Below, one piece after another: positions 962-63,680 of a stretch of DNA of 64,000 bases. This DNA comes from Corynebacterium vitaeruminis DSM 20294 (lineage in GTDB: Bacteria; Actinomycetota; Actinomycetes; Mycobacteriales; Mycobacteriaceae), in NCBI RefSeq assembly GCF_000550805.1, contig NZ_CP004353.1, positions 2,480,001 to 2,544,000 on the forward strand, given 5' to 3'. Made by a program: the position numbers and the translations under genes. How positions within the stretch are numbered: position 1 is the first letter of the stretch; each line of letters begins with the position of its first letter. The notes under the pieces are model-generated. The model made no database searches. It saw only the letters and a list, made by a program, of their open reading frames with translations, and was not told where the DNA came from.

Positions 962-972
962 GCTTGTCGACG
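962..972 (+). repeat. Dispersed word GCTTDTCGACG
   Basis: Exact copy (GCTTGTCGACG) in the clpC-lysS intergenic region, 24 bp before the lysS terminator stem. Confidence 0.8.
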
Positions 973-995
973 TTCAGCCTTCGGCGGGCATGCCA

Positions 996-1029
996 AAGCC
1001 CCCGGCGGATCGTCGTCTTCCGGGGGCTT
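996..1029 (-). terminator. Intrinsic terminator of lysS
   Basis: AAGCCCCCGG (996-1005) and CCGGGGGCTT (1020-1029) form a perfect 10-bp stem with a 14-nt loop, 15 bases past the lysS stop codon. On the minus strand the stem is followed by only a short T tract. Confidence 0.8.
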
Positions 1030-1043
1030 GGAAAGTAAGGGGC

Positions 1044-2612
1044 CTAGTTCTCGGGCTTGACCATCGGGAACAGCACGGTCTCGCGGATGCCGAGACCCGT
1101 GAGCGCCATGAGCAGGCGGTCGATGCCCATGCCGCAGCCGGCCGTCGGCGGCATGCCCTGCTCCATCGCGGCGAGGAAGTCCTCGTCGAGCACCATGGCC
1201 TCGTCGTCGCCGCCGGCGGCAAGTCGGGCCTGGTCCTCGAAGCGCTCGCGCTGGATGATCGGGTCGACCAGCTCGGAGTAGCCGGTGGCCAGCTCGAAGC
1301 CGCGCACGTAGAGGTCCCACTTCTCGGTCACGCCCGGCAGAGAGCGGTGCTGGCGGGTCAGCGGCGAGGTCTCCACGGGGAAGTTCTTGACGAAGATCGG
1401 ACCGTAGAGCTGGTCCTCGCAGAGTACCTCCCAGATCTCCTCGACGAGCTTGCCGTGGCCCCAGCCGCCCTTCTCCGGAACCTCCAGGCCCACCACCTTG
1501 GCGAGCGCCTTGAGCTCCTCGACGGTGGAGTCGATGGTGACCTCGGGCTGGCCGGGGAACTTGCGGGCCAGCGCCTCGTTGAGGGAGGGGTACATCTCGA
1601 TAACCTTCCATTCCCCGCCGAGGTCGTACTCTGTGCCGTCGGCAAGCGTCACCGTCGTGGAACCGAAGACCTCCATGGCGACGTTCTGGATCAGGTTCTT
1701 GATGGTGCGCGCGCCGTCCTCGTAGGTGCCCCACGCCTGGTAGGTCTCGAGCATGGCGAACTCCGGCGAGTGTGAGGAGTCCACACCTTCGTTGCGGAAG
1801 TTGCGGTTGACCTCGAAGACGCGCTCGATGCCGCCGACCACGCAGCGCTTGAGGTAGAGCTCGGGCGCGATGCGCAGGTAGAGGTCGATGTCGAGGGCGT
1901 TGGAGTGGGTGATGAACGGGCGTGCCGCGGCGCCGCCGTGCAGGGTCTGCAGCATCGGGGTCTCGACCTCGAGGAAGCCCTGAGATTCGAGGTAGTTGCG
2001 CAGCGCGCGCATGACCTTGATGCGGGTGAGCGCGTTGGTGCGGGCCTGCTCGCGCATGATGAGGTCGGTGTAGCGGTGACGAACGCGGGAGTCCTCGCTC
2101 ATGTCGGCGAACGCGACCGGCAGCGGGCGGATCGCCTTGGACGCCATGTGCCAGGTCGTGGCCATGATCGACAGCTCGCCGCGGCGGGAGGAGACGACGC
2201 GGCCGCGGATGGAGACGATGTCGCCCAGGTCGACGTCGGCCTTCCACGCGGCGAGCTGTTCCTCGCCGACCTCGGCCAACGAGAGCATGGCCTGGATCTG
2301 GGTGCCGTTGCCCTCCTGCAGCGCGGCGAAGCAGAGCTTGCCGGTGTTGCGCACGAACAGCACGCGGCCGGCGACGGCAACCTCGACGTCGGTCTCCTCG
2401 CCCGGGGTCAGGTAGGTAACGCCTTCCGCCGGGTCCTCCGGCTTCTCGGCGACCGCCTCGAACTTCTGACGCAAATCGGTGATGCTGATGGTGCGGTCGA
2501 CCACAACCGGGTACGCCTCGCCGCCGTTGTCGATCAGGCGCTGGCGCTTCTCACGGCGGATGCGGAGCTGCTCAGGTACATCATTTGCTGGGGTCTTGTT
2601 TGCGTCAGTCAC
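1044..2612 (-). CDS. lysS: Lysyl-tRNA synthetase, class II
   Basis: Charges tRNA-Lys with lysine in the cytoplasm. The 522-residue protein has the family's usual length. It has an N-terminal OB-fold anticodon-binding region (about residues 60-190), then the class II catalytic core with [13 protein letters not shown], motif 2 around [15 protein letters not shown], and motif 3 [15 protein letters not shown] near residues 494-508. The reading frame stays open further upstream, but the start is taken as GTG at 2610-2612 because the protein then begins [21 protein letters not shown] -10 hexamer TACCCT (plus-strand 2621-2626) sits 8 nt before it, which points to a leaderless transcript. It is the first gene after the divergent kinase and ends in its own terminator. 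Confidence 0.96.
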
Positions 2613-2666
2613 GGCTATCAAGGGTAGTCGATGCCAGCGCGATTGAGTAACACAAGGCCTGCATTT

Positions 2667-2677
2667 GCTTTTCGACG
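2667..2677 (+). repeat. Dispersed word GCTTDTCGACG
   Basis: Exact copy (GCTTTTCGACG) between the divergent lysS and kinase genes, 44 bp before the kinase -10 box. Confidence 0.8.
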
Positions 2678-5023: not shown

Positions 5024-7090
5024 ATGATCGGCAAGAACCTGCTTAACCTGTTCGCTTCCTCGCGATCCACCACCACCTGCACCTACAAATGCGGCAACGC
5101 CTGCTTCGGTGAGGACGAGAACAGCTCCTCCAACCTCTACTTCGGCGAGATCTCCCGCCGCAGCGCGCTCAAGGCGGGCGGGCTGACCGTCCTCGCCGTC
5201 GGCACCGGAACCGCCATGGCGCGCGGCACCGCCGCCGCTCAGGGGCTCAGCTCCTCCTCGAGCATGTTCGGTTCCTCCGGATCCTCCACCGGCGGCGCGA
5301 CCGACGGCGCTTACCAGGGCATGCAGTTCGACGCCGTCGAGCCGAACAAGGAGGACGCTATCGTCGCCCCCGCGGGGTATGCCTCCTCCGTGCTCATCGC
5401 CTGGGGCGACCCGGTCATCGAGGGCGCACCGGAGTTCGACTTCGACAACCAGACCCCCGAGGCCGCTGAGCAGCAGTTCGGCTTCAACAACGACTTCGCG
5501 GGCCTCATCGAGCACCCCTCCGACCCCAGCCGCATGCTGTACATGTGCTCCCACGAGTACACCACCGAGCCGATGATGTTCCACGGCTACGACGCAGCCA
5601 GCCCGACCCTCGAGCAGTTCAAGATCGGCCTCGCCGCGCACGGACACACGATCCTCGAGGTCTCCAAGGTTCCGGGCTCCGGCGACCTGAAGCGCGAGTT
5701 CGGCCCGCTCAACCGCCGCATCACCGCGTCCACCCCGTTCGAGCTCCGCGGACCCGTCGCTGGCTCCACCTACGCCAAGACCGACACCGACCCCGCGGGT
5801 ACGACCGTGCTCGGCACCCTCAACAACTGCTCCGGCGGCGTCACCCCGTGGGGCACCATGCTCTCCGGCGAGGAGAACGTCGATCAGTACTTCGGCAACG
5901 CCGAGTTGCTTTCCGACGCTGACGTGAAAGACAAGCTCAAGCGCTATGGAATCGCCGGCGGCGAGACCCAGCGCAAGTGGGAGCGCTTCGATTCCCGCTT
6001 CGACGCCTCGCTGACCCCGAACGAGCCGAACCGCTTCGGCTACGTCGTGGAGATCAACCCCTTCGATCCCACCTCCACCCCGGTCAAGCACACCTCCATG
6101 GGCCGCTTCAAGCACGAGGCCGGCAACATCTACGTCACCGGCGACGGCACCGTGGTCTGCTACTCCGGCGACGACTCCCGCTTCGAGTACCTGTACAAGT
6201 TCGTCTCCACCCGCAAGATGATCCCGGGCGACATGGACAACAACATGCGCATCCTCGACGAGGGAACCCTCTACGTGGCCAAGCTCGAGGGCAACTCGCC
6301 CGCCTCCGAGATCGACGGCTCCGGCCAGCTTCCCTCTGACGGCGCCTTCGACGGCACCGGCACCTGGATCCCGCTGGTCACCGTTCCCGAGCACGGCCCC
6401 GCCGTCTCGCACGTCGACGGCATGGACGCCGTCGAGGTCTGCGTGTACACCCGCCTGGCCGGCGACAAGGTCGGCGCCACCAAGATGGACCGCCCCGAGG
6501 ACGTCCAGGCCAACCCGAAGAACGGCAAGGTCTACGCCGCGCTGACCAACAACTCCTACCGCGGCGCCGCCGGCAAGGACGACGTCGACGAGTCCGCGCC
6601 GATCCGCGAGAACAAGAACGGCCTCGTCCTCGAGATGGACGACGACCACGCGGGCACCGCCTTCACCTGGAACCTGCTGCTGGTCTGCGGCGACCCGAAC
6701 ATGGCCTACTCCTACTTCGGCGGCTTCGACAAGACCAAGGTCTCGCCGATCTCCTGCCCGGACAACGTGGCCTTCGACTCCTTCGGCAACCTGTGGATCT
6801 CCACCGACGGCAACGCACTGAAGAGCAACGACGGCCTCTACGCCGTCGCCGTCGAGGGCGACCGTCGCGGCGAGGTCAAGTGCTTCCTCACCGTCCCTGC
6901 CGGTGCCGAGACCTGCGGCCCGATCGTCACCGACGAGCGCGTCATGGTTAACGTCCAGCACCCGGGCGAGTCCGACAGCGCCACCGCCGAGGCTCCCACC
7001 TCCCACTGGCCCGACGGCGGCAGCTCCCAGCCCCGCCCGGCCGTCGTGGTGGTCTTCCCCGAAAACGGCGGCAAGGTCGGCATCGCCTAA
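5024..7090 (+). CDS. PhoX-family phosphatase (DUF839), Tat-exported
   Basis: Predicted extracytoplasmic alkaline phosphatase that frees phosphate from organic esters. The 688-residue protein has a twin-arginine motif SRRSALKAG at about residues 45-53 and a hydrophobic stretch after it, giving folded export through Tat as is typical for metal-containing PhoX. The rest matches the PhoX/DUF839 pattern: GLIEHPSDPSRMLYMCSHEY, NNCSGGVTPWGTMLSGEEN (metal and substrate ligands), and GRFKHEAGNIYVTGDGTVV. The start ATG at 5024 is not preceded by a strong Shine-Dalgarno sequence, and I could not identify a clear PhoR site. The gene stands alone between the divergent esterase and a convergent panC-like gene. 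Confidence 0.88.
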   Translation: MIGKNLLNLFASSRSTTTCTYKCGNACFGEDENSSSNLYFGEISRRSALKAGGLTVLAVGTGTAMARGTAAAQGLSSSSSMFGSSGSSTGGATDGAYQGMQFDAVEPNKEDAIVAPAGYASSVLIAWGDPVIEGAPEFDFDNQTPEAAEQQFGFNNDFAGLIEHPSDPSRMLYMCSHEYTTEPMMFHGYDAASPTLEQFKIGLAAHGHTILEVSKVPGSGDLKREFGPLNRRITASTPFELRGPVAGSTYAKTDTDPAGTTVLGTLNNCSGGVTPWGTMLSGEENVDQYFGNAELLSDADVKDKLKRYGIAGGETQRKWERFDSRFDASLTPNEPNRFGYVVEINPFDPTSTPVKHTSMGRFKHEAGNIYVTGDGTVVCYSGDDSRFEYLYKFVSTRKMIPGDMDNNMRILDEGTLYVAKLEGNSPASEIDGSGQLPSDGAFDGTGTWIPLVTVPEHGPAVSHVDGMDAVEVCVYTRLAGDKVGATKMDRPEDVQANPKNGKVYAALTNNSYRGAAGKDDVDESAPIRENKNGLVLEMDDDHAGTAFTWNLLLVCGDPNMAYSYFGGFDKTKVSPISCPDNVAFDSFGNLWISTDGNALKSNDGLYAVAVEGDRRGEVKCFLTVPAGAETCGPIVTDERVMVNVQHPGESDSATAEAPTSHWPDGGSSQPRPAVVVVFPENGGKVGIA

Positions 7091-7952: not shown

Positions 7953-8645
7953 TTACTCCTTGTCCATTCCTTCGTTCATCGCCCACCACTCCACGTCATG
8001 CGCGCGGTAGGCCTGCGCCATCCGCTTGGCTAGGTGGCGGAAGGTTTCCCGATCCGCTGGCTCCGGTATGACCTCCACACAGCGCTCGAGGGTTCCCACG
8101 TCCATCAATGCTCGAGACCCCGCCGCGTTGTCGACGATCTCCACCTGGGTTTCCGTATCCGTCACCGCTTGGTCCAGCAGCTGGTAGGCGATGATCTCGA
8201 CCTGGTTCCGGAAACTCGCGAAGGCCACCCCGGCGACGAATTCCTGCAGCTTCGACTCCGGCACCGAAATCGACCTCAGCTGGCATTCCGCGAGCAGCAG
8301 CTCCCCCACCGTCGCCGTGACCTCGTCGCTAGCAGTGACCGACCACGCCTCATGCGTGGTCTCGATGCTGACGAAGCACAAGGCGCCCAGCTCCACCAGA
8401 GGGCGGAACACCTCCAGCGTGTAACGAGGGCACGAGTGCAAGAAGAGTTGTCCACGCTTTGCAAACACAGCAAGCTTCTCGACGAAAAACTCCATCTGCT
8501 CGGGCGACACACCCAAAACGACGAGCTGCGCCGACTCGATCTCCCTCGGCTCACTGGCCTGAAAGACCTCATGCCCCGCTTCTCGCAGCCGTTCGCTCAG
8601 CTCGCTGAAGCCGAACACGGCAATCCTCATGCGAGGCGCCTGCAC
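7953..8645 (-). CDS. Rossmann-like / DUF2520-type protein next to panC
   Basis: Function unknown. The 230-residue protein opens with a dinucleotide-binding beta strand (MRIAVFGFSELSERL) and resembles the Rossmann-like/DUF2520 proteins related to ketopantoate reductase and 6-phosphogluconate dehydrogenase folds. The constant neighbour of panC-like genes in corynebacteria is such a protein (memory), which suggests a link to pantoate metabolism. The classic GxGxxG is degenerate (GFSELS), so NAD(P) binding is uncertain. The GTG at 8643-8645 has AGGA about 10 nt upstream and lies 3 nt from the preceding gene's stop; an internal ATG at 8628-8630 is the alternative start. Confidence 0.7.
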   Translation of the reverse strand: MQAPRMRIAVFGFSELSERLREAGHEVFQASEPREIESAQLVVLGVSPEQMEFFVEKLAVFAKRGQLFLHSCPRYTLEVFRPLVELGALCFVSIETTHEAWSVTASDEVTATVGELLLAECQLRSISVPESKLQEFVAGVAFASFRNQVEIIAYQLLDQAVTDTETQVEIVDNAAGSRALMDVGTLERCVEVIPEPADRETFRHLAKRMAQAYRAHDVEWWAMNEGMDKE

Positions 8646-12909: not shown

Positions 12910-13785
12910 TTATCTTCCCATCTTCCAGCGGGCCGCGACGTCCACGGCATCGCGCGACACGGCCACGTCGTGGACGCGCACGCACCAGGCGCCCTCCGAG
13001 GCGGCGATGGCAGTCACAGCCGCGGTTGCTGGGTCGGCATTTGCGGCGATGTCCTTGGCGTCGACAAGCGAAGAAGCAAAACCGCGCTCAGGGCGCAACG
13101 CGGCGAGGAAGCGCTTGCGGGAGGCACCCACGAGAACGGGGAACTCACCCGCGATGAACTCGGGGAGTGCCTTGAGGAGGGCCCAGTTGTCCTGCGCTGA
13201 CTTGGCAAAGCCGAGGCCGGGATCGAGCGTGATGGCGGATTCCTTCACCCCTGCGGCCAGGGCCTTCTCGACGAGGCGATTGAGCGTTGCGCGCACGTCG
13301 GCCACCACGTCGCCGCCGTGGTCGGCCTGCCCCGCGGCGTCGCCAAAACGCACGGTCTTCCAGTGCATGAGGCAGACCGGCACCTTCGCATCCGCCATGA
13401 CAGCGAACATCTCGGGATCCGCGAGCCCACCGGAAACGTCGTTGATGAGATCGACGCCAGCCTCCGCTGCCGCGGCCGCGACAGACGCGCGCATGGTGTC
13501 CACAGAGGTGCGGATTCCCTCAGCGTGCAGCGCTTCGATCACCGGAACCACGCGTTGCTTTTCGACGCCCGCCTCCACCCGGCTCGCCCCAGGACGGGTG
13601 GATTCGCCGCCGACGTCGATGATGTCCGCGCCCTCGGCCACGAGCTGCTTCGCGTGCGCGACCGCCTTGGCGGGGTCAAGGTACCGGCCCCCGTCCGAGA
13701 ACGAATCTTCGGTGACGTTGACGATGCCCATCACGAGGCAGCGATCGGGCAGGGTCGTTTCAATTCCAAGGACGGGATCACGCAT
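12910..13785 (-). CDS. folP: Dihydropteroate synthase
   Basis: Condenses dihydropterin pyrophosphate with p-aminobenzoate; this is the sulfonamide target. The 291-residue protein has VMGIVNVTEDSFSDGG near residues 19-33, DIIDVGGESTRPGA at about 54-68, DPGLGFAKS in the middle and GASRKRFLA near residue 213, all standard pterin- or phosphate-binding motifs. It lies 25 nt after folE in the operon. Two copies of the dispersed 11-bp word (13059 and 13557) sit inside this gene in opposite orientations. Confidence 0.95.
   Translation of the reverse strand: MRDPVLGIETTLPDRCLVMGIVNVTEDSFSDGGRYLDPAKAVAHAKQLVAEGADIIDVGGESTRPGASRVEAGVEKQRVVPVIEALHAEGIRTSVDTMRASVAAAAAEAGVDLINDVSGGLADPEMFAVMADAKVPVCLMHWKTVRFGDAAGQADHGGDVVADVRATLNRLVEKALAAGVKESAITLDPGLGFAKSAQDNWALLKALPEFIAGEFPVLVGASRKRFLAALRPERGFASSLVDAKDIAANADPATAAVTAIAASEGAWCVRVHDVAVSRDAVDVAARWKMGR
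13059..13069 (-). repeat. Dispersed word GCTTDTCGACG
   Basis: Inside folP, in frame as S-L-V-D-A-K; the extended match GCTTGTCGACGCCAAGG is shared with copies at 38863 and 62802. Confidence 0.8.
13557..13567 (+). repeat. Dispersed word GCTTDTCGACG
   Basis: Second copy in folP, opposite orientation (GCTTTTCGACG), in frame as V-E-K-Q on the coding strand. Confidence 0.75.
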
Positions 13786-18300: not shown

Positions 18301-19247
18301 TAGCTGGTTGCCTTTCTCCTTGCGATAACGCAAAGTTTGCCATCTTTGCGCACTATCTCCAACCTCTCACGCGAATTTCCCCCGACCGCGACTCCGCCCT
18401 GCCCAGACCAGCTGGTCACGAGCGAGTCAATCGATTGCAAGATGGCGGCAGAGACTTTCAGCTTCCGCTCGTGGAGGTACGCGGCCAGAACCCGTCGCCG
18501 TAGCGCTGGCGCAAGCTTTCTTAGCTTGTCGACGACCAACCCCTCCCCCTGGCTGGCCTCCGCGAAGGCGCCGGCCGCGAGCTCGTCCAAAAGCTCCCGG
18601 TCCTCCGCCACGAGCGCCCCGGCCGCCGCCAGCGCCTCGACGGGGTCCCTGCCCGCCAGCTCTCCGAGCAGCGGAAGCACCTCGCGGCGCAGGGCCACGC
18701 GCAGGAAGGCGGGGTCCTCATTCATGGGGTCGTCCCAGGGCTTGAGCCCCAACTCGGCGCAGGCCCCGCGGGTATCGGCGCGGCGCACGCGGAGGAAGGG
18801 GCGGGTGATCTCGCCGTGGACGCTCATCGCGGAGAGCTGGCCGCGCAGGCCGCTGAGCAGCACGGTCTCGGCCTGATCGTCGGCGGTGTGGGCGACCCAG
18901 AGGGCGCGGCCTCGCGCTCGGGCGGCCTCCCGCAGCGCCCGGTAGCGGGCCTCGCGGGCCCTGGCCTCGACGTTGCCCTCCCCCACGATCACCGGGACGA
19001 CCTCGGCGGTGGCGCCGAGCGCCTGGGCCTGCGCGGCCGCCGCGGCCGCCACCTCGGTCGATCCGGGCTGCAGGCCGTGGTCGACGACCACCGCGTGGAC
19101 CTCCCGGCCCTCGGCCCGCGCCGCGGCCACTAGGGCCAGGGAGTCGGCCCCTCCCGAGAGCCCGATCACGGGATTGCCGGGGACGTCGCGAAGCGACCGT
19201 CGACAAGCAAGGAAAAACGGCGAGTGACGAGGCCAGAACGGCTGCAT
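18300..19247 (-). CDS. tilS: tRNA(Ile)-lysidine synthetase
   Basis: Converts the wobble cytidine of the AUA-reading tRNA-Ile to lysidine using ATP and lysine. The 315-residue protein has the PP-loop motif SGGADSLAL at about residues 30-38, [11 protein letters not shown], and [14 protein letters not shown] with the conserved Asp-Asp-Gln. The C-terminal region is short, as in other actinobacteria. The ATG at 19245-19247 immediately follows the dac stop codon (TAGATG). The N-terminal segment includes a copy of the dispersed word (19198-19208) and a second copy lies at 18524-18534. Confidence 0.95.
18524..18534 (+). repeat. Dispersed word GCTTDTCGACG
   Basis: Inside tilS (GCTTGTCGACG); the coding strand reads V-V-D-K-L. 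Confidence 0.75.
19198..19208 (-). repeat. Dispersed word GCTTDTCGACG
   Basis: At the 5' end of tilS; the coding strand reads L-A-C-R-R-S, a different frame from other genic copies. Confidence 0.78.
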
Positions 19248-22313: not shown

Positions 22314-22692
22314 ACCACACCCCCAGGGCCAGCACCACGATGAGGGCGGGCTGGCCGGGAGCCACGACCAGACCAAGCACCCCGACGATATCCCCCGCGA
22401 CGCCGAGCCATAACAGGATGCGGGGGAGGCGGTCGATCGGGACCCGGAGCGCCCAGCAGGCGGTCGCGAGCAGGGCCAAGGGGGCGGACAGGCCGCTGAT
22501 GGTCGCGAGCGAGCCGCCGATAGGCGTCGACAAGCGAGAAAACAGGAACGCAGCGGCGACGGCGCCGGTGACGAGAACCACGACCCACAGGCGCCAGGCG
22601 AGCTGACCCGTCAGGCGCCGCTTGTCGCGCGCGGTGGGGCCGACGAGGCGGGCGAGCAGCGCCTGTTGCTGCGGGGTCAGCTCTTTGCTCAT
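22273..22692 (-). CDS. Small four-helix membrane protein, unknown function
   Basis: I do not recognise the family. The 139-residue protein has a short charged N terminus (MSKELTPQQQALLARLVGPT) and four hydrophobic segments at about residues 33-53, 61-80, 92-110 and 116-136. The ATG at 22690-22692 lies 12 nt after the tannase-like gene's stop, so the two are probably cotranscribed. Its last 41 nt overlap the 3' end of the DUF559 gene on the other strand. A dispersed 11-bp word lies inside it (22525-22535, reading SRLSTP). Confidence 0.6.
   Translation of the reverse strand: MSKELTPQQQALLARLVGPTARDKRRLTGQLAWRLWVVVLVTGAVAAAFLFSRLSTPIGGSLATISGLSAPLALLATACWALRVPIDRLPRILLWLGVAGDIVGVLGLVVAPGQPALIVVLALGVWFTLVGLVSGMLAS
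22525..22535 (-). repeat. Dispersed word GCTTDTCGACG
   Basis: Inside the small membrane protein gene; the coding strand reads S-R-L-S-T-P. Confidence 0.78.
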
Positions 22693-24682: not shown

Positions 24683-24973
24683 ATGAGAGAAGTCACCGTC
24701 ACCGAAGTCCCCGAGAACGCCCAGCTTATCGACGTCCGCGAGGTCGATGAGTTCGCCGCCGTCCGCGCCCGCGGCGCCAAGAACATCCCGCTGTCCGAGT
24801 TCGTCTCCCGCGTCGGCGAGATCGACGACGAGCAGGACATCTACGTCATCTGCAAGGCCGGCGGCCGCAGCGCCAAGGCCTGCGAGTACCTCGCCACCCG
24901 CGACATCGACGCCATCAACGTCGCTGGCGGCACCGACGGCTGGGTCGCAGCTGGCCTGCCGACCGAGAGCTAG
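24683..24973 (+). CDS. Rhodanese-like domain protein
   Basis: Single-domain sulfurtransferase-type protein of 96 residues. The Cys-containing active-site loop is YVICKAGGRSAKACEYL (CKAGGRS), and the CH2A-like region is ENAQLIDVREVDEFAAVRARGAKNIPL. It likely moves sulfur between thiols in the cytoplasm; the partner is unknown. The ATG at 24683 is 7 nt after an extended -10 (TGGC-TAAGAT, 24670-24675), giving a leaderless mRNA; an ATG at 24674 overlaps that -10 box and is less likely. A terminator follows. Confidence 0.88.
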   Translation: MREVTVTEVPENAQLIDVREVDEFAAVRARGAKNIPLSEFVSRVGEIDDEQDIYVICKAGGRSAKACEYLATRDIDAINVAGGTDGWVAAGLPTES

Positions 24974-26270: not shown

Positions 26271-26281
26271 CGTCGATAAGC
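26271..26281 (-). repeat. Dispersed word GCTTDTCGACG
   Basis: Two bases after the lipase stop (CTAGG-CGTCGATAAGC); non-coding copy. Confidence 0.8.
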
Positions 26282-37307: not shown

Positions 37308-37440
37308 CTTCGTTTTTAGCAGTCGACCCTTGCGAGTGCAAGGTGGCGCGGTACGCCGAGAGCAAACGCCGGGGATGGGGCGCCGAGGCCGTAGGCGTCG
37401 GAAAGCGACGGCATGGGGAAACTGCCTACACTGGGAAACT

Positions 37441-38862: not shown

Positions 38863-38873
38863 GCTTTTCGACG
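38863..38873 (+). repeat. Dispersed word GCTTDTCGACG
   Basis: Non-coding copy right after the dipeptidase terminator (GCTTTTCGACGCCAAGG). Confidence 0.8.
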
Positions 38874-39887: not shown

Positions 39888-39898
39888 CGTCGATAAGC
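39888..39898 (-). repeat. Dispersed word GCTTDTCGACG
   Basis: Non-coding copy after the LeuA-domain gene terminator, before mnhA. Confidence 0.8.
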
Positions 39899-43388: not shown

Positions 43389-45093
43389 CCAGCTCTACGA
43401 CCTCCTCGTGTCGATCCTGCCCGACCTCATCCCGCTGCCCATCCTGCTGCCCGCCCTCGGCGCGGCGCTGGCGCTGATTTTCGCGCGCTCCCCGCGGGCG
43501 CAGCGGGCGATCACCGTGGGCATCCTGTTCGCGCTCATCGCGCTGTCGGTCACGCTCGTGCTGCTCGTCGACCGCGAGGGCATCCAGACCCTGCAGGTCG
43601 GCGGGTGGGACGCGCCCGTGGGCATCACGCTGGTCGCCGACCGGCTCTCCGCGCTCATGCTCGCCGTGAGCTCGCTCGTCTTGTTCTGCGTCATGTGGTA
43701 CGCCATCGGCCAGGGCGTGCGCGACGGCGACGAGGAGGACCCGGTCGCGGTGTTCCTGCCCACCTACCTGCTGCTTTCCATGGGCATCAACGTCTCCTTC
43801 CTCGCCGGCGACCTGTTCAACCTCTACGTCGGCTTCGAGATCTTCCTGGTGGCCTCCTACGTCCTGCTCACGCTCTCGGCCTCCCCGGCGCGCGTGCGCG
43901 CGGGCGTGTCCTACGTGATGGTGTCGATGGTCAGCTCCGTGGTGTTCCTCATCGGCCTGGGGCTGGTCTACGCCGCGGTGGGCACGCTCAACATGGCGCA
44001 GATCTCCCAGCGCATGGCGGACGTGCCGGGCGGGACGCAGTCGATGATCTTCGCCGTCCTGCTCGTGGCGTTCGGCATCAAGGCGGCGGTGTTCCCGCTG
44101 GACAGCTGGCTTCCCGACTCCTACCCCACCGCCCCCTCGCTGGTCACCGCGGTGTTCGCGGGACTTCTGACCAAGGTGGGCGTCTACTCGATCATCCGCA
44201 TGCGCTCGGTGGTGTTTACCTCCGGCACCCTCGACACCCTGCTCATGTGGGTCGCGCTGGCGACGATGCTCGTGGGCATCCTGGGCGCCATGGCGCAAAA
44301 TGACATCAAGCGCCTTTTGAGCTTCACGCTGGTCAGCCACATCGGCTACATGATCTTAGGGCTGGCGCTCGGCACCGCGCAGGGGCTGTCCGGCGCCATC
44401 TTCTACGCCATCCACCACATCCTCGTCCAGACCGCGCTGTTCCTGGTGGTGGGGCTCATCGAGCGCCAGGCGGGCTCCTCCTCGCTGCGCAGGCTGGGCT
44501 CGCTGGCCAAGGCGTTCCCGCTGCTCGGCGTCTTGTACATGTTCCCGGCCATGAACCTGGGCGGCATCCCGCCGTTTTCCGGGTTCCTGGGCAAGGTCAT
44601 CGTGCTGGAGGCCGCCGCCAGGGCCGGCGGCCCGCTGTCCTGGCTGCTCATCGGCGGCGCGGTAGTCACCAGCCTGCTCACCCTGTACACCATGGTCGTG
44701 GTGTGGTCGAAGGCCTTCTGGCGCGACCGCGCCGACGCTCCCGAGGGCGACACCGCGCTCGTGCGCCCGACCGTGCTCTCGGACGTCACCGCCACCACCA
44801 CCGTCGCCGAGCGCGCCGACGTGGGCCGCGCGCCCGCGGGCATGCTGGCCGCCACCTCGGTGCTGGTGGCCTGCTCGCTAGGGCTGACGATCGTGGCCGG
44901 GCCGGTCACCGCCGTGACCACGCGCGCGGCGGAGTCCGCGCAGGACACCAGCATTTACCAGGAAGCCGTGCTGGGCATCAACCCCGTGCCCTCGCGGACC
45001 GTGGATCAGGAGTCCAACTCCGAGCGCTCCGACTCCCTCGATGAGCGCAGCCAGGCCGAGCGGCAGGCGTCGACAAGCAAGGGGGCGCGATGA
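43381..45093 (+). CDS. mnhD: Mrp/Mnh antiporter subunit D
   Basis: NuoM/N-like membrane subunit of 570 residues, about 14 helices, carrying a proton/cation path. Family features include LYVGFEIFLVASYVLL (conserved Glu), KAAVFPLDSWLPDSYPTAP, VTAVFAGLLTKVGVYSIIR (conserved Lys) and DIKRLLSFTLVSHIGYMILG. The GTG start at 43381 overlaps mnhC by 8 nt. The C terminus is a charged Ser/Arg/Glu-rich tail in which a dispersed word (45068-45078) encodes ASTSK. Confidence 0.93.
   Translation: MTSQLYDLLVSILPDLIPLPILLPALGAALALIFARSPRAQRAITVGILFALIALSVTLVLLVDREGIQTLQVGGWDAPVGITLVADRLSALMLAVSSLVLFCVMWYAIGQGVRDGDEEDPVAVFLPTYLLLSMGINVSFLAGDLFNLYVGFEIFLVASYVLLTLSASPARVRAGVSYVMVSMVSSVVFLIGLGLVYAAVGTLNMAQISQRMADVPGGTQSMIFAVLLVAFGIKAAVFPLDSWLPDSYPTAPSLVTAVFAGLLTKVGVYSIIRMRSVVFTSGTLDTLLMWVALATMLVGILGAMAQNDIKRLLSFTLVSHIGYMILGLALGTAQGLSGAIFYAIHHILVQTALFLVVGLIERQAGSSSLRRLGSLAKAFPLLGVLYMFPAMNLGGIPPFSGFLGKVIVLEAAARAGGPLSWLLIGGAVVTSLLTLYTMVVVWSKAFWRDRADAPEGDTALVRPTVLSDVTATTTVAERADVGRAPAGMLAATSVLVACSLGLTIVAGPVTAVTTRAAESAQDTSIYQEAVLGINPVPSRTVDQESNSERSDSLDERSQAERQASTSKGAR
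45068..45078 (-). repeat. Dispersed word GCTTDTCGACG
   Basis: At the 3' end of mnhD, read as A-S-T-S-K, 12 bp before the mnhE start. Confidence 0.8.
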
Positions 45094-47697: not shown

Positions 47698-48218
47698 GCG
47701 GTCGCCTCCCGCGCGATGATGCCGGCCAGCCGCGCCGGGTCGGCGTCGAAGTAGGGGCGCTCGCCGCGCGGCAGCGCGGTCACGGATGCGTCTTCCAGGC
47801 CTTGGCCGTCGACAAGCAACGCCAGCGTGCGCTCCGGTAACGGTTTTCCTGGCCAATCGATGTCGGCGAGCAGCTTCAACGCTTTTCGACGCTCACCAAA
47901 GGCGGGAACGAACCGCAACCCGGCGCGGCCGGGCAGGATGCCCGCGGGGTGGGAGAGGACGAGCGCGCGGACGCGGCCCGGCGAACGGACCGCGACGGTG
48001 GCGACGACGTCCGCGCCCGTGCCGTGACCTGCGAGGACCACCCGGCGCAGCTCGTTCTTGTCGAGGAAGCGCTCCACCGCCGCGACCTGCTCCTTAAACG
48101 ACAGCCCGAAAGTGGAAGGCAGCCACGGCTTCACCCCGTTCGGCAGCGCCTGGACGACCTGAGTCCAGCAGTCCGGGTGGCGGCCCGAGGGCGAGACGAG
48201 GACGACGTCAGCGCTCAT
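47694..48218 (-). CDS. Alpha/beta hydrolase-fold protein with altered nucleophile elbow
   Basis: Small hydrolase-fold protein of 174 residues: [20 protein letters not shown], then [20 protein letters not shown], then [20 protein letters not shown]. At the nucleophile elbow the usual G-x-S-x-G reads GHGTG, so Ser is replaced by Gly; a shifted nucleophile (Thr) is unlikely. It may bind a ligand rather than hydrolyse, or be decaying. ATG at 48216-48218 overlaps the end of the GCS2 gene by 11 nt. It contains two dispersed words (47807 and 47881) only 63 nt apart, in opposite orientation. Confidence 0.65.
47807..47817 (-). repeat. Dispersed word GCTTDTCGACG
   Basis: Inside the hydrolase-fold gene, read as L-L-V-D-G. 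Confidence 0.78.
47881..47891 (+). repeat. Dispersed word GCTTDTCGACG
   Basis: Second copy in the same hydrolase-fold gene, opposite orientation, read as E-R-R-K-A. Confidence 0.78.
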
Positions 48219-52939: not shown

Positions 52940-52965
52940 GACGGGCTTTGGCCGCCCGCCGTAGG

Positions 52966-52976
52966 CGTCGACAAGC
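52966..52976 (-). repeat. Dispersed word GCTTDTCGACG
   Basis: Non-coding copy between the convergent acetyltransferase and LPXTG genes; flank GCCGTAGG is shared with 58674. Confidence 0.8.
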
Positions 52977-56284: not shown

Positions 56285-57055
56285 ATGCGCATTGTGAATT
56301 GGAACGTCAACTCGATGAGGACCCGTGTGGAACGCGTGCAGGCCTTCCTCACGCGCCACGACGTCGACGTTCTCGCAGTGCAGGAAACCAAGTGCAAGGA
56401 CGAGCAGTTCCCGTACCTGGCCTTCGAGGAGCTCGGCTACGAGGTGGCCCACTTCGGGCTCAACCAGTGGAACGGCGTGGCGATCATCTCCCGCGTCGGC
56501 ATCGAGGACGTGGCCACCTCCTTCCCCGGGCAGCCGGGCTTTAACAAGGACCCGGGGAAGAAGCAGGCCATCGAGGCCCGCGCGCTGGGCGCCACGTGCG
56601 GCGGGGTGCGCGTGTGGAGCCTGTACGTGCCCAACGGCCGCGAGATCGCCGACCCGCACTACGACTACAAGCTGCGCTGGCTCTACGCCCTGTCCTGCTA
56701 CGTCGGCGCCGCGCCCGACGAGCGCATGGTGCTGCTGGGCGACTACAACATCGCCCCGCGCGACCAGGACGTCTGGGACATCCGCGCCTTCGAGGGAAAG
56801 ACGCACGTCACCGAGCCGGAGCGGCAGGCCTTCGAGTCGCTTCTCGACGCCGGACTTGACATCACCAGCCCCCTGGAAGGCTATTCCTACTGGGACTACA
56901 AGGGCGGGCGCTTCCAGCGCGGCCAGGGCATGCTCATCGACTTCCAGCTCTCCCGGGGGCTCAGGCCCACCAACTCCTTCATCGATGTCGACGAGCGCCG
57001 CGGCACCGGCGCCTCCGACCACGCCCCCGTCGTGGTGGACTACGAGCTGGCTTAG
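56285..57055 (+). CDS. xthA: Exodeoxyribonuclease III
   Basis: DNA-repair AP endonuclease and 3'-5' exonuclease. The 256-residue protein has NWNVNSMRTR, VLAVQETKCKDEQFP (metal-binding Glu), YVPNGREIADPHYDYKLRWL, LLGDYNIAPRDQDVWD (Asp/Asn pair) and the C-terminal GTGASDHAPVVVDYEL with the catalytic Asp-His. ATG 56285 follows TACTGT (56272-56277) at 7 nt, so the transcript is leaderless. cls starts 9 nt after the stop and is probably cotranscribed. Confidence 0.96.
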   Translation: MRIVNWNVNSMRTRVERVQAFLTRHDVDVLAVQETKCKDEQFPYLAFEELGYEVAHFGLNQWNGVAIISRVGIEDVATSFPGQPGFNKDPGKKQAIEARALGATCGGVRVWSLYVPNGREIADPHYDYKLRWLYALSCYVGAAPDERMVLLGDYNIAPRDQDVWDIRAFEGKTHVTEPERQAFESLLDAGLDITSPLEGYSYWDYKGGRFQRGQGMLIDFQLSRGLRPTNSFIDVDERRGTGASDHAPVVVDYELA

Positions 57056-57064: not shown

Positions 57065-58561
57065 ATGATGATCTCCTGGAACCTCGACCTATCCACCTGG
57101 CAGACGATCGGGCTCATCGTCGACTACACCCTCAAGGTTGCAGCGGTCGGCTTCGTACCGGAGGGCCGCCGGCCGAGCTCCTCGACGGCGTGGCTGCTGG
57201 TCATCTTGCTGCTGCCCTACATCGGCCTGCCGCTGTTCCTGCTCATGGGCAGCCCCTACATCAACCGCCGGCGCCACCGCATCCAGCAGGAGGCGAACTC
57301 GGCGATCACCGACGTCCAGGCCATCGAGCCGGACTACCCGGAGGGCTCGGTGCAAAACACGGAGATCGCCTCGATGATCCGGCTCAACCGCAGGCTAACG
57401 GCGATGCCCGCGGTGAGCAGCACCAACCTGGGGCTGCACACCAACTACCGCGAGTCGATCCTGCAGATGGCCCGTGCCGTCGACTCCGCGACCAAATACG
57501 TCCACGCCGAGATCTACATCATCGCCTGGGACCCCACCACCGAGGTGTTCTTCCAGGCGCTCGAGCGCGCGGTCAAGCGCGGGGTGGACGTGCGCGTGCT
57601 CTTCGACCAGGTGGGCAGCTGGAAGTACCCGGGCTACCTCAAGCTGGGCAAGCGCCTCGACTCGATCGGCGTGAACTGGCAGCTCATGCTCCCGCTGCAG
57701 CCGCATCGCTGGCGATTTAGGCGCCCCGACCTGCGCAACCACCGCAAGATGCTCATCATCGACGGCGAGCGCGGCTTCCTCGGCTCGCAGAACATCATCG
57801 ACTCCAGCTACCTCAAGCGCGCCAACGTCAAGGTCGGCCGGCACTGGGTCGACGTCATGGTGGAGCTGTCCGGCCCCGTGGTGGCGTCGATGAACATGGT
57901 CTTCGCCGTGGACTGGTACCTCGAATCCGAGGAGCTCATCCCCATCGACGATGACATCCTGGGCCCCGGGATCCCCACCACCCACAACTCCTCGACCAAC
58001 ATCGTGCAACTCGTGCCGTCGGGCCCCGGCTACACCACGGAGCCGAACCTGCGCCTGTTCAACTCGATCATCCACCACGCCAAGGAGCGGCTGGTGATGT
58101 GCTCGCCGTACTTCATCCCCGACGAGTCCATGCTCGAGGCCGTGACCACCGCCTGCTACCGCGGCGTGGAGGTGGAGCTCTACGTGAGCGAGAAGGGGGA
58201 TCAGTTCATGGTCCACCACGCGCAGTCGTCCTATTACCAGGCGCTCCTGGAGGCGGGCGTGCGGATCTTCATGTACCCCAAGCCCGCGGTCCTGCACTCG
58301 AAGTACATGCTCGCCGACCCGGAGTCCGGGTCCGCGGCGGTGGGCGTCGTTGGCTCGTCGAACATGGACATGCGCAGCTTCGGCCTCAACTACGAGGTCT
58401 CGCTCATGGTCACCCGCGGCAATATCATAGGCGAGCTCAACGAGCTGACCAAGGAGTACAAGGAGCTTTCCGACGAGCTGACGCTGGAGGAGTGGAACCA
58501 GCGCAGCTGGGGCCGCCGGTACGTGGACAACGTCATGCGGCTGACCTCGGCGCTGCAGTAG
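57065..58561 (+). CDS. cls: Cardiolipin synthase
   Basis: Membrane enzyme joining phosphatidylglycerol molecules to cardiolipin. The 498-residue protein has two N-terminal membrane helices (about residues 12-30 and 42-62), then two phospholipase D half-domains with HKD motifs: NHRKMLIIDGERGFLGSQN (HxKxxxxD) and LHSKYMLADPESGSAAVG with VGSSNMDMRSFGLNYE. The ATG pair at 57065/57068 follows GGGGG; either may be the start. It lies directly after xthA and ends before the second palindromic element. Confidence 0.94.
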   Translation: MMISWNLDLSTWQTIGLIVDYTLKVAAVGFVPEGRRPSSSTAWLLVILLLPYIGLPLFLLMGSPYINRRRHRIQQEANSAITDVQAIEPDYPEGSVQNTEIASMIRLNRRLTAMPAVSSTNLGLHTNYRESILQMARAVDSATKYVHAEIYIIAWDPTTEVFFQALERAVKRGVDVRVLFDQVGSWKYPGYLKLGKRLDSIGVNWQLMLPLQPHRWRFRRPDLRNHRKMLIIDGERGFLGSQNIIDSSYLKRANVKVGRHWVDVMVELSGPVVASMNMVFAVDWYLESEELIPIDDDILGPGIPTTHNSSTNIVQLVPSGPGYTTEPNLRLFNSIIHHAKERLVMCSPYFIPDESMLEAVTTACYRGVEVELYVSEKGDQFMVHHAQSSYYQALLEAGVRIFMYPKPAVLHSKYMLADPESGSAAVGVVGSSNMDMRSFGLNYEVSLMVTRGNIIGELNELTKEYKELSDELTLEEWNQRSWGRRYVDNVMRLTSALQ

Positions 58562-58671: not shown

Positions 58672-58673
58672 GG

Positions 58674-58684
58674 CGTCGACAAGC
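58674..58684 (-). repeat. Dispersed word GCTTDTCGACG
   Basis: Directly beside palindromic element B; the last base is the first base of the exporter's stop codon complement. Confidence 0.8.
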
Positions 58685-60070: not shown

Positions 60071-61282
60071 ATGTCGTACACCACCTCGCGCTCGTCCTCC
60101 CTGGACCCCTCCCACTTCACCCGCTACCAGGAGTTTCAGCACCCCACGCACATCGACGTCCACGACCTCGACCTCAACGGGCCCACCTCGTGGACGCGCG
60201 CCGGCGCGCTCCTCAACTGGGCCACCATCGTGGCCGCGTTCGCGCTCATGACGATCGGCTTGCACTTCATCGTTGACGCGCTGACCGCACTGTTTCCCAC
60301 CACCCAGGGAACCGTCTTCCGCGAGGGGCTCGGCCCCTTCACCGGATTAGCCGCAGGCATCCTGGCCACGGCGCTGCTGCAGTCGTCCTCGGCGGTGACC
60401 GTCTCCCTCGTGTACGGCGTGGGCACGGGGATGCTGAGCACCGAGGCGGCCATCTCGGCGATCTTCGGCGCCAACATCGCAACGACCATGAGCCCGCTCT
60501 TCCTCACCTTCTGGCTGGGCCCGGACCGCGAGCGCGCCGAGCGAGCGCAGCGGATGGCGTTCATGCACGTGTGGTTCAACATCCTCGGCGTGGCCGTGTT
60601 CTTGCCCCTCGAGCTGGCTTTCCATCCCCTTGAGACGGTTGCCCACAGGTTGGTTGCCCCGGTCAATGACCTGGTTCAGTCCGAGGACGTCTTCCAAGGC
60701 ATCTCCCGCCACTATTGGGGAAACTCCTACTCGACCGGATCCGGCATGATGTGGCTGGAGTTCGTGGGGGGATCCGTGCTGGCGGTCGCTGCGGTCGTGC
60801 TGTTGCAGCACCGGATCAAGGCGCTCATCGGGGGTACGGGGTTTGCCATCCTCGAGCGCGCGGGAGGGATCACCGACGTCGCGGGGCTCACGCTGGGAGT
60901 GCTCGCAACCATGGCCTCCGGGTACTCCTCCGCGACGGTCACGGCCGTGGCGGGCGCCGCCAGCGTCAAGGCGATACGCGACCGCGCGGCGCTTCCCATC
61001 ATCATGGGCGCGAACATCGGCACCACGCTGACGGGCATCCTCATCGCGTTCCAGCTCGGCTCGCCCGCGGGGTCGGTGGCGCTGCGCGTCGCGCTCGTGC
61101 ACCTGCTGTTCAACCTGACCGGCACGCTCGTGGTCTTGCTCGTCCCGTTCGCGCGCCGGCTCATCGTCGCGCTTGCTACGCGGTCCGCTTCCGCTTTTCG
61201 ACGTTCCTACGCGGCCGGACTCGCGATCATGGTCCTTACCGGCTGGGTCATCCCGCTCATCATCTTGAGCGTGTTCCGCTAG
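60071..61282 (+). CDS. Na+/phosphate cotransporter (NptA/PNaS family)
   Basis: Sodium-dependent phosphate importer of 403 residues. The hallmark ILATALLQSSSAVTVSLVYG carries the QSSS motif with GANIATTMSP after it, and the inverted second half has ATMASGYSSATVTAVAGAAS and IMGANIGTTLTGILIAF, with the second QSSS degenerate. About eight helices; a 40-residue hydrophilic N terminus precedes them. AAGGAG lies 9 nt before the ATG at 60071; an upstream ATG at 60026 is less likely. Its stop shares CTAG (61279-61282) with the convergent ABC permease gene. A dispersed word lies near its 3' end (61193). Confidence 0.88.
   Translation: MSYTTSRSSSLDPSHFTRYQEFQHPTHIDVHDLDLNGPTSWTRAGALLNWATIVAAFALMTIGLHFIVDALTALFPTTQGTVFREGLGPFTGLAAGILATALLQSSSAVTVSLVYGVGTGMLSTEAAISAIFGANIATTMSPLFLTFWLGPDRERAERAQRMAFMHVWFNILGVAVFLPLELAFHPLETVAHRLVAPVNDLVQSEDVFQGISRHYWGNSYSTGSGMMWLEFVGGSVLAVAAVVLLQHRIKALIGGTGFAILERAGGITDVAGLTLGVLATMASGYSSATVTAVAGAASVKAIRDRAALPIIMGANIGTTLTGILIAFQLGSPAGSVALRVALVHLLFNLTGTLVVLLVPFARRLIVALATRSASAFRRSYAAGLAIMVLTGWVIPLIILSVFR
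61193..61203 (+). repeat. Dispersed word GCTTDTCGACG
   Basis: Near the 3' end of the Na/Pi cotransporter gene, read as S-A-F-R-R-S. Confidence 0.78.
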
Positions 61283-62037: not shown

Positions 62038-62055
62038 GTATTGATTCCTTCCCTG

Positions 62056-63042
62056 TTACTTTCGCACCCGGTGGCTGCCCGCCCGGCGGGGCGCTGGCTT
62101 GCCTGCGAGGCTGCCCTGCTCCGGGGTGATCGTCGAGTGGTACTGGACGGCGTCGCCGGTCAGCTGCATGAACGCTTCCTCCAGCGAGGCGTGGCGCTGC
62201 TCGAGCAGCGCGAGCTCTATGCCCTTCTCGAAGGCAATGGCGCCAACCTCGTCGGAGGTGCGCTCCGGGATGGTGAGCGTGGGGCGCTCCTCCTCGTCGG
62301 TGCCCTCCTGGACCTCGAAGCCGCGGCTAATAAGCTCGTCTCGGAGCGTGCCGAGGTCGCCCGCGCGCACGACGACGGCGGTGCTGGCGTAGTTCTTGAT
62401 GAACTCGTACGTCGTGGAGTTGGCCACGAGCTTGCCGCGGCCGATGACCACGAGCTCGTCGGCGGTCTGCGACATCTCCGACAGCAGGTGGGAGCTGACC
62501 AGCACGGTGCGTCCCTGCTCCGCGAGCGAGCGCAGGAAGTCGCGCACCCAGCGGATGCCCTCGGGGTCGAGGCCGTTGACCGGCTCGTCGAGGATGAGGA
62601 CCTCGGGGTCGCCGAGCAGCGCGGCGGCGAGGCCTAGGCGCTGGCCCATGCCGAGCGAGAACCCGCCCGCCTTCTTGCCCGCGACGTCGCTCAACCCAAC
62701 CAGCCCCAGGACCTCCTCCACGCGGGAGGTGGGGATGCCGTTGGTCTGGGCGATCCACTTGAGGTGGTTGGCGGCGCTGCGATTGGGGTGGACTGCCTTG
62801 GCGTCGATAAGCGCCCCAACGGTGCGAAGCGGCTGCTTGAGCCTGCGGTAGGCGGTGCCGTCGATGGTGGCGGTGCCGGCTGTGGGCGTGTCGAGCCCCA
62901 AGATCATCCGCATCGTGGTCGACTTGCCCGCACCATTGGGGCCGAGAAAGCCGGTGACGATGCCGGGTTTCACGTCAAAGGTGAGGTCGTCGACGGCACG
63001 CACCGCGCCGTATTGCTTGGTCAAGCCGCGCACTTCAATCAT
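62056..63042 (-). CDS. ABC transporter ATP-binding protein
   Basis: ATPase of 328 residues for the adjacent permease. Walker A GPNGAGKSTTM (about residues 36-46), signature FSLGMGQRLGLAAALL, Walker B VLILDEPVNGLDPEG and the H-loop SSHLLSE are all intact. The C-terminal 110 residues form the extension seen in bacitracin/daunorubicin-type exporters, with a basic tail. The start is placed at ATG 63040-63042, 7 nt after CAGACT (plus-strand 63050-63055), in preference to the GTG at 63046-63048. A dispersed word at 62802 encodes LIDAK. Confidence 0.93.
   Translation of the reverse strand: MIEVRGLTKQYGAVRAVDDLTFDVKPGIVTGFLGPNGAGKSTTMRMILGLDTPTAGTATIDGTAYRRLKQPLRTVGALIDAKAVHPNRSAANHLKWIAQTNGIPTSRVEEVLGLVGLSDVAGKKAGGFSLGMGQRLGLAAALLGDPEVLILDEPVNGLDPEGIRWVRDFLRSLAEQGRTVLVSSHLLSEMSQTADELVVIGRGKLVANSTTYEFIKNYASTAVVVRAGDLGTLRDELISRGFEVQEGTDEEERPTLTIPERTSDEVGAIAFEKGIELALLEQRHASLEEAFMQLTGDAVQYHSTITPEQGSLAGKPAPRRAGSHRVRK
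62802..62812 (-). repeat. Dispersed word GCTTDTCGACG
   Basis: Inside the ABC ATPase gene, read as A-L-I-D-A-K, with the extended CCAAGG flank. Confidence 0.8.
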
Positions 63043-63116
63043 GCCCACCAGTCTGGCACAGGTTAACCCGCGCCCGCCGGGGCGAGCTGAAGGTTTCGCT
63101 CACAGCGAACGCCGCG

Positions 63117-63647
63117 CTAGGCGCCGAGCGCCTCGATGAGCAGGTCCTTGACCCGCGGCCACGACTTGGCGAAGGCGGGCATGAGGTCGAGCGCCGCCAC
63201 CTGGTCGACGGGCACCCAGCGCAACTCGCAGGACTCCTCGTTGGCGGTGGTGGCGAGCTCGCCCGGCGCGAGCGCGAAGACGGTGGTGTAGGTCCAGCCG
63301 CCCGCGAGCGAGGGCCGGGCAGGGTCGGAGGCGAAGGGCCCCGCGGTCACGGCCCAGGACAGCACGCGGTAGGAATCGGGGCTGATGCCGGTCTCCTCCT
63401 CGACCTCGCGGCCCGCGGCCTCGGCGACGGTCTCGTGCTCCTCGCGCGCGCCGCCCGGCAGCGCCCAGGTGTCCCCGTTGCTGGTCCAGGCCGCGCGGTG
63501 CTGCATGAGGATGACCCAGCCGTCCTCCCCCGGCGCGGCCAGCGCGAGGCCCGCGGCGCCGTGGCGCCCCCACATGCGCGCGCCGCCCGGGCCCGCCGCC
63601 CAGCCTTCCCCGTGGAAAGACGCGCTCAAGCTCTCGATTCCAGCCAT
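63117..63647 (-). CDS. NUDIX hydrolase
   Basis: Cleaves a nucleoside diphosphate linked to another group; substrate unknown. The 176-residue protein has the NUDIX box as GGAREEHETVAEAAGREVEE with ETG following (Gly, Glu and the REVEE core all present, at about residues 68-90), and ALPGG before it. The start ATG at 63645-63647 lies 7 nt after TATGCT (plus-strand 63655-63660), so it is leaderless; an in-frame ATG at 63659 lies within that -10 box. A dispersed word lies just upstream at 63670. Confidence 0.92.
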   Translation of the reverse strand: MAGIESLSASFHGEGWAAGPGGARMWGRHGAAGLALAAPGEDGWVILMQHRAAWTSNGDTWALPGGAREEHETVAEAAGREVEEETGISPDSYRVLSWAVTAGPFASDPARPSLAGGWTYTTVFALAPGELATTANEESCELRWVPVDQVAALDLMPAFAKSWPRVKDLLIEALGA

Positions 63648-63669
63648 GTTTCCCAGCATAAGCGTTTTC

Positions 63670-63680
63670 GCTTGTCGACG
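63670..63680 (+). repeat. Dispersed word GCTTDTCGACG
   Basis: Non-coding copy 10 bp upstream of the NUDIX -10 box. Confidence 0.8.

Follow-up and report, generated by a model that had tools for sequence, protein, structure and literature searches.

A candidate DNA uptake sequence dispersed over Corynebacterium chromosomes

The word in the window and in its source genome

The window analyzed here is a stretch of 64,000 nucleotides of the Corynebacterium vitaeruminis DSM 20294 chromosome. It comprises positions 2,480,001–2,544,000 of the source genome (G000), which consists of one contig of 2,931,780 bases. Dispersed over both strands of the window is a short DNA word, GCTTDTCGACG, with 20 exact copies (10 per strand), whereas only 0.18 are expected (mean of 100 dinucleotide shuffles; maximum 2). 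An earlier note on this DNA had put the chance expectation well below one, in agreement with the shuffles, and had counted 19 copies (nine plus, 10 minus). All 19 listed positions are correct, but the copy at 24724 (+) had been overlooked. Allowing any base at the variable position gives 23 copies; besides the two C-variants already recorded at 8474 and 31929, there is a third at 56839.

The sharp motif is GCTTNYCGACG, which occurs 32 times in the window, 18 times on the plus and 14 times on the minus strand (Table 1). With this definition, the apparent word-free gap between 26.3 and 38.8 kb disappears, as the copies at 29032, 30673, 31929, and 37396 fall inside it. In a single-substitution scan of 504 kb of G000, the motif was seen 262 times versus 8.5 expected. 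Its one-mismatch forms mostly stay at 0–1.9 times expectation (24 of 29), and the remaining five reach 2.5–5.8 times, the largest enriched form being the one with A at the Y position. An extra C two bases 3′ of the core is present in 59–95% of the copies, depending on the set inspected.

The whole G000 genome contains 1305 copies of GCTTNYCGACG (637/668 by strand) and 40 of the reversed-word control. According to the earlier note, a genome-wide count near expectation would have spoken against the word; the outcome was the opposite, with 916 copies of GCTTNTCGACG (453 and 463 by strand) against 23 of its reversed counterpart. Word contrasts were calculated with Markov models of order 3–4. High-order models were dropped because the sub-words of the word are enriched as well, which hides it.

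Table 1. Positions of GCTTNYCGACG in the window
Sequence	Position	Strand	Remark
GCTTGTCGACG	962..972	+	
GCTTGCCGACG	1637..1647	-	
GCTTTTCGACG	2667..2677	+	
GCTTTCCGACG	5908..5918	+	
GCTTCTCGACG	8474..8484	+	
GCTTGTCGACG	13059..13069	-	
GCTTTTCGACG	13557..13567	+	
GCTTGTCGACG	18524..18534	+	
GCTTGTCGACG	19198..19208	-	
GCTTGTCGACG	22525..22535	-	
GCTTTCCGACG	23825..23835	-	
GCTTGCCGACG	24414..24424	+	
GCTTATCGACG	24724..24734	+	overlooked in the earlier note
GCTTATCGACG	26271..26281	-	
GCTTTCCGACG	29032..29042	+	
GCTTGCCGACG	30673..30683	+	
GCTTCTCGACG	31929..31939	+	
GCTTTCCGACG	37396..37406	-	
GCTTTTCGACG	38863..38873	+	
GCTTATCGACG	39888..39898	-	
GCTTGTCGACG	42405..42415	+	
GCTTTCCGACG	42651..42661	-	
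GCTTGTCGACG	45068..45078	-	
GCTTGTCGACG	47807..47817	-	inverted pair with 47881
GCTTTTCGACG	47881..47891	+	inverted pair with 47807
GCTTGTCGACG	52966..52976	-	
GCTTCTCGACG	56839..56849	+	
GCTTTCCGACG	58465..58475	+	
GCTTGTCGACG	58674..58684	-	
GCTTTTCGACG	61193..61203	+	
GCTTATCGACG	62802..62812	-	
GCTTGTCGACG	63670..63680	+	

In G000, intergenic copies are preceded by T-rich sequence on the 5′ side, and the core is often followed by a small palindrome, for instance GCCTACGGC; the T run is weak or absent in copies from other sets. The palindromes include GCC-TAC-GGC, GCC-AAA-GGC, and GC-TTC-GC, with varying loops and stems, and one example in the window is found at 52956–52976 (-). The window also encodes, at 26912–30835 (+), a 1307-amino acid protein with AMP-binding, carrier, and hexapeptide-repeat domains.

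Distribution, dialects, and genic copies

The excess of the word spans the genus, as a check in related genomes proposed by the earlier note made apparent. Of 242 Corynebacterium genomes, 168 are word-rich, defined as having GCTTNTCGACG 100 times or more and in at least fourfold excess over the control; the copy number has a median of 567 and a maximum of 1533. In sum, both strands contribute equally (47,782 forward, 47,741 reverse). The order-wide sample covered 56 genera, including Corynebacterium; none of its 149 genomes outside Corynebacterium is rich, and the word never exceeds ∼2.6 times the control there. The genome that we presume to be C. glutamicum ATCC 13032 (G361), whose GlxR is 100% identical to a PDB chain, carries 1030 copies.

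Word counts in word-poor genomes revealed a second dialect, GCTTNYCGATG (T form, as opposed to the C form GCTTNYCGACG). This form was counted in 149 Corynebacterium genomes, of which 21 have at least 100 copies; 18 of these are T-dominated, and three are mixed (G379, G380, and G389). The T-dominated genomes hold 376–889 T copies in 14 cases and 107–151 in four, with at most 117 copies of the C form. They comprise 16 of 63 C-poor genomes plus G143 (850 T, 117 C) and G179 (822 T, 50 C). A third dialect (up to two substitutions) was sought in 40–140 kb each of the word-free genomes G152, G133, G163, G014, G148, G147, G128, and G033, and none stood out.

We placed the word on a tree of 85 loci built by a quick method, from which loci with too little sequence were dropped. 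Word status on this tree rests on 12–21 kb per species, which leaves single losses uncertain. The word runs throughout one large clade (59 rows: 37 C, 8 T, 3 mixed, and 11 none) and is also found in one row adjoining C. xerosis. It was scored absent in 18 of 18 rows of the clade with C. urealyticum, C. variabile, and C. glyciniphilum (12–21 kb each). The T form is nested in a clade that includes C. macginleyi, C. phoceense, and the mixed C. tuberculostearicum.

Other words are over-represented in single genomes: TACCCGGACGG (G180), TGGGTAAACCT (G091), CGTGTACACG (G138), and TTAGGAAGTG (G029). Three genomes of the word-free clade (G147, G128, and G148) show a mild excess of words like GCGGCGTCC, CCGGACGCCG, and GTGGCGTCGG, possibly the result of codon usage or of a different signal in this clade. 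In stretches of G152 (L050, L061, and L062), a repeat containing CCGCGCACGCGG occurs ∼20 times in 60 kb and is perhaps a CRISPR array.

Genes in G000 were defined by our own simple caller, which assigns 76.6% of the sequence as coding and probably misses genes. By this definition, 134 of 241 copies lie inside genes, and the other 107 lie in the ∼23% of sequence not called coding. The earlier note had described genic copies as spread over different frames. Instead, one frame dominates, holding 47 of 50 same-strand and 23 of 34 opposite-strand copies of GCTTNTCGACG in 464 kb. The note's claim that the word acts on DNA and not on protein is nevertheless borne out by codon usage. The leucine codon CTT makes up 6.7% of all leucine codons in G000 versus 45 of 69 (65%) in the word context G–Leu–(V/I/F/L)–Asp–G. 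In G361, the values are 16% overall versus 25 of 27 in context, and in G180, they are 7.9% versus 29 of 34. Neither the word-free genome G148, where the context occurs once, nor the T genome G006, where it does not occur, is informative. Because a rare codon dominates in the word context, selection acts on the DNA, and the word dictates codon choice.

For the comparison of orthologues, seven genes were aligned by codon, giving 125 copies on 48 positions after 15 gapped genic sites had been dropped. Orthologous windows without the word, which the earlier note had proposed to inspect, are mostly ungapped (2294 of 2836, with 542 gapped), and 1635 of the 2294 ungapped ones differ from the word by 1–5 mismatches. 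These alignments suggest that copies mostly arise through point mutation. At shared positions, the dialect mostly agrees with that of the genome. At 13 positions common to at least three copies, ATG is found in eight of eight cells of T-labeled genomes and also in three cells of C-labeled genomes. The most-used positions are one in proA (16 loci) and one in comEA (15 loci).

Orientation, spacing, and mobile DNA

Spacing of the word is more even than random (coefficient of variation (CV) 0.75–0.90), and in G000 each strand taken alone is evenly spaced as well (CV 0.70 and 0.77). Copies sharing an orientation keep their distance from one another; oppositely oriented ones do not. Among pairs 100–1500 bp apart in G000, 63 have the same and 160 the opposite orientation, a same-orientation count reached by 0 of 1000 strand shuffles. 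Pairs 1.5–6 kb apart are nearly balanced (466 same, 505 opposite). In four rising distance bins up to 1500 bp, same-orientation pairs number 4, 16, 16, and 27 and opposite pairs 20, 22, 48, and 70, with Poisson expectations of 22.5, 33.7, 44.9, and 56.2 for each orientation. The pooled sets from other species (700 sites, omitting L143, a duplicate of G178) give 117 same versus 189 opposite pairs (0 of 2000 shuffles). Single sets with the same trend are G361 (6/19; 12 of 1000 shuffles) and the named loci (25/48; 3 of 1000). For eleven other G000 words, same-orientation pairs exceed or roughly equal opposite ones at 100–1500 bp, and in a neighbor test, one of six other words had a slight opposite excess (z 2.2). 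A simple model of one-sided coverage is unsupported, as convergent (76) and divergent (84) pairs are similarly frequent at 100–1500 bp.

Pairs closer than 100 bp are inverted in 24 of 28 cases and direct in four; neighbors less than 60 bp apart form just 20 pairs among 431 sites. Clustering at gene ends, as claimed by the earlier note, is seen, but the bias is only moderate: the final tenth of the gene holds 24 of 127 genic copies, and intergenic copies are less than 60 bp from a neighboring stop codon in 64 of 109 distances and from a start codon in 32 of 104.

No replichore polarity of the word was found in three G000 segments, where the strand counts are 56/65 (0–200 kb), 18/14 (the window), and 44/44 (1.3–1.5 Mb). 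The GC skew is opposite in sign between the first of these and the window. Likewise, there is no clear origin-to-terminus gradient in segments covering 904 kb of 2.93 Mb. The earlier note had argued from overall strand balance against a role like that of Chi or the FtsK-orienting polar sequences (KOPS). This argument is invalid by itself because polarity could flip between replichores, but the counts by segment confirm the lack of polarity.

The same 904 kb contain 431 copies. The largest word-free gap among them (173,981–221,781; 47.8 kb), in which ∼23 copies are expected, encodes integrase, terminase, portal, capsid, tape-measure, and endolysin proteins. The terminase and major capsid proteins of a prophage at 181–218 kb (L010 and L181) match Corynebacterium phage Poushou and its relatives at 100% identity; Poushou was isolated on C. 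vitaeruminis. In 10-kb bins of G000 with a GC content below 0.61, we found 21 copies in 11 bins versus 407 in 79 others, although some low-GC bins have normal counts. An 18.4-kb region at 2,849,400–2,867,824 (GC 0.557) with zero copies is a candidate genomic island.

In G361, 200 kb of chromosome hold 71 copies (1.2 expected), whereas 200 kb of low-GC DNA at 1.78–1.98 Mb, which we take to be the large prophage CGP3, hold none. Copies of GCTTNTCGACG number 0 in phage Poushou and 1 each in phages BFK20 and P1201 and plasmid pCGR1 (203 kb together). About 59 are expected from genome densities, assuming the density of G361 for the hosts of BFK20, P1201, and pCGR1. Phage Troy of C. xerosis has one copy in 44.6 kb. 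The word is thus depleted in the mobile DNA tested, which comprises few elements.

A putative uptake code, its rivals, and known systems

Genes for a DNA uptake route are present across the Corynebacterium genomes tested. ComEC was found in 80 of 80 Corynebacterium genomes (40 word-poor, nine of them T genomes, 38 word-rich, plus G120 and G180), and a TadA match exceeds the Pfam cut-off in all of these but G021 (79 of 80). In G000, comEA and comEC adjoin at ∼2.179 Mb, and a tad cluster at 311–316 kb encodes T2SSE and T2SSF proteins and a DUF4244 pilin. In each of 30 genomes examined, TadA and Flp homologues occupy the same location; individual smaller genes of the cluster went undetected in five (G014, G163, G117, G147, and G033). 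In the word-free clade, the cluster has diverged. In another actinobacterium, Micrococcus luteus, transformation needs comEA-comEC and the Flp/tad pilus, according to excerpts of PMC8467076.

ComEC frames measure ∼460–640 amino acids in most word-rich genomes and 650–880 in many word-free ones, and ComEC of G000 matches only the Competence domain in Pfam. We rejected ComEC length and TadA score as independent evidence because the tree sets the word-free clade apart. TadE1 and TadE2, considered as receptor, showed no clean association with the word in a comparison of sequences.

We favor the view that GCTTNYCGACG, with GCTTNYCGATG as its second dialect, serves Corynebacterium as a DNA uptake sequence. 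It would be an actinobacterial case of its own, akin to the DNA uptake sequence (DUS) of Neisseriaceae and the uptake signal sequence (USS) of Pasteurellaceae; we put the probability of this view at roughly two in three. The word looks like a tag that tells own-kind DNA from foreign DNA. A role like that of an uptake sequence had been listed as possible in the earlier note. It is favored by the abundance and strand symmetry of the word, its confinement to Corynebacterium among the genomes sampled from the order, its two dialects, the mostly ungapped word-free orthologues, selection in codons, absence from the mobile DNA tested, same-orientation exclusion, and the comEA-comEC and tad genes.

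In the proposed mechanism, a cell-surface receptor belonging to the competence machinery would bind free DNA that bears the word; this DNA would enter by way of the Tad/Flp pilus and then ComEA and the ComEC channel, and recombine into the chromosome. Such DNA would enter preferentially, and the word would spread through point mutation combined with biased uptake (molecular drive), because fragments carrying it enter more often. If a single copy suffices to carry in the 1.5 kb around it, another with the same orientation would bring no gain (saturation), and the endpoint of the spread would be one copy per orientation in each ∼1.5-kb stretch. Uptake would then have to depend on strand or direction, given that copies in opposite orientation are exempt. 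Phages and plasmids, which spread by other routes, would stay almost word-free. We infer from these traits that the word is read during uptake, in an orientation-specific manner and by a pilus protein, and that molecular drive has spread it.

Several observations weigh against an uptake sequence. The one-mismatch forms lie near background in the 504 kb scanned, lacking the graded enrichment reported for two species with DUS or USS. ComEC and the tad cluster are present in word-free species too, and therefore the machinery does not account for where the word occurs. Some word-rich assemblies have damaged or missing machinery (a weak TadA match only in G021, a split ComEC in G114, and a short ComEC in G138). 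No receptor was found, the pilin-like TadE1 being similar in word-free G133 and G152. Taken alone, three sets do not reach significance for same-orientation exclusion: G180 (6/13; 139 of 1000 shuffles), 14 other C genomes (46/51; 310 of 1000), and the T genomes (15/27; 68 of 1000). The 1.5-kb limit of the exclusion was picked after inspecting G000, and the exclusion fits any orientation-specific reader. Finally, no report of natural competence in Corynebacterium is among the matches listed from open-licence PubMed Central papers.

The exclusion would have the same geometry under the main rival reading, in which the word is a Chi-like site, an orientation-specific signal that is read by a helicase-nuclease such as AdnAB during resection of broken DNA and that protects self DNA and starts recombination. 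Its orientation-specific spacing and its absence from the prophage, phages, and the low-GC region are compatible with this role, and its high copy number suits a resection signal met in either direction. We nonetheless regard a Chi-like site as unlikely. The RecC family is found in 0 of 80 genomes (the Escherichia coli control was positive), leaving the classic RecBCD reader absent, although AddAB and AdnAB were not searched for, and the word lacks replichore polarity. Known Chi sites have 5–8 bases, whereas this word, with nine fixed and one two-way base, is longer. We know of no dialect change of the DUS kind for Chi. The change of dialect at conserved gene positions seen here is instead a trait reported for DUS (PMC3630211). 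Less probable still is a binding site for a chromosome-organizing or segregation protein through most of the chromosome. The fairly even spread and the absence from foreign DNA suit a chromosome mark, but neither strand polarity nor a clear origin-to-terminus gradient is apparent in the 904 kb, same-orientation exclusion over 1.5 kb is unexpected for such a site, and a whole clade as well as single species lack the word, which would be improbable if segregation depended on it.

A mobile or transcript-level repeat, such as a repetitive extragenic palindromic (REP)-like element or a family of terminator hairpins, would explain why close pairs are mostly inverted, why many intergenic copies lie just behind stop codons, and why a small palindrome often follows the core in G000. 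It is very improbable, as more than half of the copies (134 of 241) lie in called genes, mostly in a fixed frame, pairs less than 60 bp apart are rare, and conservation is limited to 11–13 bases. The predominance of ungapped word-free orthologues also argues against insertion of the REP type or by miniature inverted-repeat transposable elements (MITEs). The preference of genic copies for one frame could finally point to a side effect of preferred codons or dipeptides, or of a mutational tendency. To this we give almost no credence: CTT is rare overall yet dominant in the word context, 107 of 241 copies lie outside called genes, most one-mismatch words and the reversed word stay at or near background, and foreign DNA is without the word.

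Going one step beyond the uptake sequence as such, we consider it an even bet that Corynebacterium has a self-DNA uptake code outside the Gram-negative families, with dialects as species boundaries, and that this code is polar, each copy serving one strand or direction over ∼1.5 kb, which would yield two independent, evenly spaced sets of tags. If the word is an uptake code, natural transformation would be common, now or until recently, in a genus without a report of it among the matches listed, and a barrier between species would be written in the DNA. The presumed C. glutamicum G361, with its 1030 copies, would offer a harmless workhorse for immediate tests, and a method for natural transformation could follow.

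As in the earlier note, which knew of no description, none of the word in Corynebacterium was found among the matches listed from open-licence PubMed Central papers. A C. glutamicum paper contains GCTTGTCGACG once (PMC6475665), and the excerpt of a motif survey names only CRISPR-related pairs for three Corynebacterium species (PMC5217627). The Cod-2 stem-loop family, small repeats in C. diphtheriae genes (PMC2267715, in excerpt), may have been an early glimpse of the word, from which it differs in its length of 32 bp and its 43 copies.

Among known systems, KOPS/FtsK, matS, and similar motifs are likewise short and chromosome-wide; they are polarized or regional, and the Corynebacterium word is neither in the segments read. 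Chi sites, the signals of RecBCD and AddAB, are over-represented, read in one orientation, and rarer in phages. The word shares their over-representation and their scarcity in phages, and its spacing would suit reading in one orientation. It differs in its greater length, in the lack of polarity in the segments read, and in the absence of the RecC family from the 80 genomes.

The closest likeness is to DUS and USS. In H. influenzae, each USS orientation is reportedly evenly spaced, as Karlin is said to have described in 1996. The pilus of Neisseria is of type IVa, in contrast to Tad/Flp in Corynebacterium. Like DUS, the word is short and non-palindromic, with hundreds to thousands of copies. 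Its dialects track phylogeny, with mixed genomes in one species, as in the excerpted account of the Neisseriaceae, which have eight dialects (PMC3630211), and DUS are also atypically distributed in mobile elements (PMC7371117, in excerpt). The word itself and the phylum differ, and the receptor of Neisseria is ComP. With USS, it has in common abundance, a fairly even distribution, and close inverted pairs at gene ends (PMC7811141), as well as one favored orientation in reading frames and a bias to gene ends (PMC2346458), as far as excerpts of both papers extend; word, length, and machinery are different. Inverted pairs and gene-end bias are thus shared with the DUS/USS class, at a moderate effect. 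One-mismatch forms are enriched in a graded pattern in H. influenzae and N. gonorrhoeae (excerpt of PMC1939737) versus near background in Corynebacterium. Together with the Tad pilus and same-orientation exclusion, this makes three ways in which the Corynebacterium word departs from DUS/USS. The exclusion is a quantitative prediction that can be checked in the DUS and USS systems, and the word, if truly an uptake code, would stand beside them as a separately evolved case for why such codes arise and whether drive alone suffices.

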